A stretch of DNA of 47,906 nucleotides from Nanobdellota archaeon (GTDB taxonomy: Archaea; Nanobdellota; Nanobdellia; Pacearchaeales; GW2011-AR1): contig DAHWUG010000004.1 of assembly GCA_027334715.1 (NCBI GenBank), forward strand, positions 1-47,906. Direction: 5' to 3'. The notes under the pieces are model-generated. The model was not told the origin of the DNA, did not search any database, and saw only the letters and a program-made list of their open reading frames with translations. Below are positions 2,495 to 2,578 of this stretch, piece by piece; position 1 is the stretch's first letter, and each line of letters begins with the position of its first letter. The translations under genes and the position numbers were made by a program.

Positions 2495-2578
2495 TGCGGG
2501 AAGAAGGATTCGAACCTTCGCAGGCACTAAGCCACAACGTCCTTAGCGTTGCCCGTTTGACCGCTCCGGCATTCCCGC
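2495..2578 (-). tRNA. tRNA-Leu, anticodon AAG
   Basis: A class II cloverleaf can be drawn. Acceptor GCGGGAA/TTCCCGC with discriminator A, D stem CCG/CGG, anticodon stem CAACG/CGTTG around loop CTAAGGA, long variable arm TGGCTTAGTGCCTGC, and T arm GAAGG-TTCGAAT-CCTTC. The loop gives U33 then AAG, a Leu anticodon for CUU. A73 and the variable arm, almost the same as in the tRNA-Leu at 11914, support leucine. The position between rpoD and rpl18e is one where euryarchaea often keep a tRNA-Leu. A34 is unusual because archaea normally use GAG for this box. No intron or encoded CCA is seen. Confidence 0.9.

Follow-up and report, generated by a model that had tools for sequence, protein, structure and literature searches.

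The window (the whole stretch of 47,906 nucleotides analyzed) contains rpoD, genes for archaeal ribosomal proteins, and genes of the secY type, together with an 84-nt gene for tRNA-Leu(AAG) on the reverse strand (positions 2495 through 2578, -). ARAGORN calls a tRNA-Leu(aag) at 2493 through 2579 (-), the Rfam tRNA model RF00005 gives 54.1 bits for 2495 through 2578 (-) against a gathering score of 29, and the gene has orthologs in the same order. It has a class II variable arm, no intron, and no encoded CCA. The anticodon A34-A35-G36 is read at positions 2542 through 2544 (-; CTT on the + strand), with A34 at window position 2544 (T on the + strand); sequence and covariance-model alignment both place it in the loop CTAAGGA (2540 through 2546, -), closed by a CAACG/CGTTG stem. 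This anticodon, loop, and stem had been proposed in a first-pass annotation and are borne out by the sequence, ARAGORN, and Rfam. The cloverleaf, long variable arm, leucine-type body, and conserved leucine locus are those of a class II archaeal tRNA-Leu, and the gene product is predicted to be a leucine isoacceptor; it differs from the genome's own tRNA-Leu(UAA) at 15 of 84 positions.

The conserved upstream neighbor, in loci of both the A34 and the G34 type, is rpoD (RNA polymerase subunit D; 2673 through 3389, -), and the conserved downstream neighbor is eL18 (994 through 1401, -; ORF list and synteny), whose start codon is not settled. The first-pass annotation had placed the tRNA between rpoD and the eL18 unit; the conserved locus holds, but in this window a DHH-family gene (1471 through 2475) separates the tRNA from eL18, whereas in most relatives the tRNA lies directly between the two. 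Elsewhere in the window, a tRNA-Gly(UCC) gene with a 19-nt intron (12132 through 12221, +) is clustered with tRNA-Leu(CAA) and tRNA-Arg(CCU), and a 232-aa ORF beside the 5S rRNA and tRNA cluster (11163 through 11861, +) has the look of a putative homing endonuclease.

Leucine tRNA complements

The source assembly (G000; 588,343 bases in 10 contigs, 90% complete) contains 37 tRNA matches. Its leucine tRNAs are CAA, UAA, UAG, and AAG; neither GAG nor CAG is found among them, which answers the earlier call for a search for a separate tRNA-Leu(GAG). Since the assembly is incomplete, the tRNA sets of relatives were also read. All 38 tRNAs of G021 (95% complete) were read, with the same four leucine anticodons and no GAG or CAG, and the leucine-sized candidates examined in G006 and G036, each a single contig, give the same set. 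No tRNA-Leu(GAG), and thus no standard archaeal G34 decoding of CUY, was found in these four genomes. In G000 and G021, the Leu CUN box is the only one with A34.

Other anticodons were also noted in this survey. G036, which belongs to another family of the order than the source genome, has a second A34 tRNA, tRNA-Pro(AGG) (L342 1520 through 1594; G036:C1:238219-238293; Rfam 49.8 bits); two survey matches to tRNA-Pro(AGG) proved to be coding DNA, the pattern spacing not fitting the G036 gene. ARAGORN calls of Ser(AGA) and Phe(AAA) in several loci, and of Ala(TGC) in L037, are misread intron-containing tRNAs. An intron-bearing tRNA-Ile(UAU) occurs at L032 (G000:C2:206161-206281), L345, and L327, covering the source genome, G036, and, by reading, G021; this anticodon is rare in archaea (2 of 167 genomes, PMC6000648) and would stand in for the agmatidine-modified CAU that is usual there.

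Spread of A34 and switching at the locus

A pair of search patterns, distinguished from each other only around position 34, was applied to 200 genomes of the order. A34 was matched in 149, G34 in 14, and neither in 37; the two never occurred together in any of the 200, and a reversed-pattern control gave zero matches among the genomes listed. Of the 20 genomes with a completeness of 90% or more, A34 is present in 19 and G34 in one (G180). A hand calculation puts at about 1e-9 the probability that all 14 G34 genomes would fall among the 51 lacking A34; it assumes independence, which the genomes do not have. Of 276 genomes belonging to other orders of the class, 54 matched G34 and 22 matched A34, with no genome matching both; the pattern is tuned to the source order and missed 200 of the 276. 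A34 is therefore the dominant state in the order and is found again in other parts of the class. Among named genomes, the A34-specific pattern matched at least 108 stretches; because the titles among the matches listed are mostly Candidatus Pacearchaeota, with some Woesearchaeota, Nanoarchaeota, and other archaea and one labeled "bacterium," we refer to the clade as Pacearchaeota-type DPANN archaea.

These counts bear on whether the A34 could be an error of sequencing or assembly, whether the gene could be a pseudogene, and whether it could be a contaminating tRNA from a bacterium or eukaryote. The relatives are mostly metagenome assemblies and the source genome is itself 90% complete, but the same base is present in 149 separate genomes with intact structure, and at the same locus in most of those whose flanks could be compared. 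Some A34 genes also carry introns at canonical archaeal positions (e.g., L065, L077, and L080), a sequence feature that marks them as archaeal tRNA genes. An artefact is thereby refuted for the clade and has next to no probability for the present gene: the tRNA-Leu(AAG) at 2495 through 2578 (-) is genuine, being neither misassembled nor mutated in this genome alone.

In most loci whose flanks are long enough, A34 and G34 genes share one place, between rpoD and the eL18-uL13-uS9 genes. As tRNA-Leu(AAG) is thus the positional ortholog of the G34 genes, a G34-to-A change in an inherited gene is likely, in line with the earlier proposal. A tree of up to seven neighboring proteins from 79 loci (61 A34, 18 G34) requires at least eight changes of state, five of them forced by well-supported branches, compared with 16.5 for shuffled labels; the tree is a quick build from which gain and loss of A34 are not distinguishable. 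One genus (g98) has both A34 and G34 genomes. A34 is therefore no peculiarity of the source genome but the rule in its order, with several switches between the two states. The AAG and UAG tRNAs of G021 are identical except at position 34, so an A34 gene can also come from the UAG paralog or be homogenized with it, and the G34-to-A route, while likely, is not the sole one. Loci with A34 are lower in G+C than those with G34 (median 0.334 vs. 0.402). As a driver of A34, however, base composition was set aside: the raw difference is strong, yet it is nonsignificant in five independent tree pairs.

Search for an A34 deaminase

The main rival to an unmodified A34 is inosine, formed by an archaeal deaminase of unfamiliar type; the resulting IAG anticodon would, as it does in Lactobacillales and eukaryotes, read CUU, CUC, and CUA. 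A34 elsewhere is almost always I34 (PMC8072771, PMC11066159), the replacement of GAG by AAG in Lactobacillales accompanies TadA-made I34 (PMC13249217), and methylinosine at tRNA position 57 in archaea (PMC8072771) means that the domain is capable of some A-to-I conversion in tRNA. Of a TadA/ADAT inosine-34 system, the genome has the A34 tRNA and no recognized TadA/ADAT2-type deaminase. The NCBIfam TadA model, whose cut-off is stringent (exceeded in 5 of 14 control genomes) and whose subthreshold matches were also read, yields no TadA candidate in the 90% complete source assembly and no protein above cut-off in any of 180 genomes of the order, the outcome of a check that the first-pass annotation had suggested; given the incompleteness of the source assembly, the absence is inferred from these many relatives. 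The only deaminase match found in the source genome (C2:347136) was rejected as a TadA, as it groups with dCMP deaminases, and no ADAR/ADAT1-type domain exceeds cut-off in 56 genomes.

Proteins of the TadA superfamily scoring at least 50 bits occur in about 35 of the 180 genomes. Thirty were fetched and, from their motifs, are mostly guanine-deaminase-like or members of an ACPDPxGG group; one protein of the order is clearly TadA-like (G033, L202; best PDB match 1wwr, TadA), and for the others activity on tRNA is conceivable from their sequences. The group with HAEN and ACPDPxGG motifs (L219 through L229 and others) is patchy among relatives. Set against these carriers, 100 or more of the sampled A34 genomes have no TadA-superfamily protein at 50 bits or above, and 7 of the 35 carriers have no A34 match, about the share expected by chance. 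The presence of these proteins is thus patchy and does not track A34, and they were rejected as the A34 enzyme. We regard inosine at position 34 as unlikely, though a rival to be taken seriously.

Codon usage and decoding of CUY

CUU is the commonest leucine codon of the source genome (34.9 per 1000 over 41,669 codons). CUC is used at 4.9 per 1000 and occurs 26 times in the ribosomal-protein and rpoD genes of the window, so some tRNA must read it; possible readers are the AAG tRNA with A34, the same tRNA with I34, and tRNA-Leu(UAG) by superwobble. The C-share of CUY, 0.123, is the lowest among all boxes of the source genome, as expected for a poor CUC reader. Codon bias gave no significant signal as a test of A34 vs. 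I34: the shift of CUC relative to other NNC codons between samples of 81 A34 and 12 G34 genomes of the order is small (p = 0.28).

Were superwobble at work, AAG would read CUU alone and an unmodified U34 of tRNA-Leu(UAG) would read CUC. The UAG tRNA is present in all four genomes examined, and the reading of a whole box by U34 is known in reduced genomes and organelles (PMC3499367). G021, however, keeps a G34 tRNA for the C-ending codons of its Val, Ala, Thr, Ser, Gly, Arg, and Ile boxes, with UGG alone found for Pro, which indicates that superwobble is not a general strategy, and the 26 CUC codons in ribosomal-protein and rpoD genes also weigh against it. We consider this explanation very unlikely. 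It had also been suggested that the AAG tRNA might read CUU only, which is improbable because CUC is used at about 4.9 per 1000 codons and no GAG tRNA was found, or else all of CUN, a range that the presence of tRNA-Leu(UAG) makes unnecessary.

The reading that we judge probable is that the single AAG tRNA encoded at the rpoD-tRNA-eL18 locus reads both CUU and CUC, with A34 unmodified. As the single reader of these two codons in the source archaeon, tRNA-Leu(AAG) would retain adenosine at position 34, pairing Watson-Crick with CUU and reading CUC through an A·C wobble, and tRNA-Leu(UAG) would cover CUA and CUG. One possible cause for A34 being tolerated or favored is A+T mutational pressure, which in small genomes would push toward CUU. 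Unmodified A34 tRNAs are described as reading U-ending and also C-ending codons in the Mycoplasma Thr box (PMC11066159). In E. coli, an M. jannaschii tRNA given an AAG anticodon was about one third as effective on CUC as on CUU (PMC11066159); since that tRNA was itself partly inosine-modified (PMC11066159), the reading of CUC by pure A34 could be weaker still.

Discussion

A survey of 167 archaea in 2018 found A34 tRNAs nearly absent, with tRNA-Leu(AAG) in Ferroplasma acidarmanus only (PMC6000648), and later papers describe A34 as absent from archaea (PMC8072771, PMC11066159). We found no earlier report of A34 tRNAs in DPANN or Pacearchaeota in the open-access literature, and novelty is accordingly provisional. 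In F. acidarmanus fer1, as here, an archaeal tRNA-Leu(AAG) stands in place of tRNA-Leu(GAG) (PMC6000648) and was explained by a G-to-A change at position 34 (PMC6000648); that case concerns a single species of the 167 genomes, a "species-specific gain," whereas here A34 prevails in an order and recurs in other families of the class.

Two bacterial systems offer partial parallels. A 2026 paper reports that AAG replaces GAG in Lactobacillales, where TadA makes the inosine and growth benefits (PMC13249217); the replacement is likewise at family level, with tRNA-Leu(UAG) kept and A+T-rich genomes (PMC13249217), but those bacteria have a TadA that makes I34, and here none was found in nearly all genomes. 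Mycoplasma tRNA-Thr(AGU) (PMC11066159, citing Andachi 1987 and Inagaki 1995) is also an A34 tRNA of a small genome. Its A34 works without deamination and reads the C-ending codon too, as is proposed here from genes; in Mycoplasma this concerns the Thr box of a bacterium and was demonstrated by RNA analysis and a translation assay, as opposed to an archaeal leucine box approached through genes.

The analysis documents an archaeal A34 tRNA for Leu CUY that extends across a clade, in nearly all of whose genomes no recognizable deaminase was found. Reviews hold that A34 is absent from archaea and nearly always turned to inosine; here A34 is normal for one codon box in many archaeal genomes. We lean, with modest confidence, toward the broader view that a whole order keeps an unmodified A34 for CUU and CUC over long times, swapping it with G34 at one locus, and that A34·C pairing is routine on its archaeal ribosome. 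The alternation of G34 and A34 at one orthologous locus is a natural comparison for the cost of A34; it also bears on the decoding of CUC where both G34 and inosine are missing, and on the repeated appearance of A34 in the Leu CUN box of bacteria and archaea alike. Should the tRNA carry inosine after all, a new archaeal tRNA deaminase awaits discovery; if A34 is indeed unmodified across the order, a major DPANN lineage breaks the rule that archaea avoid A34.
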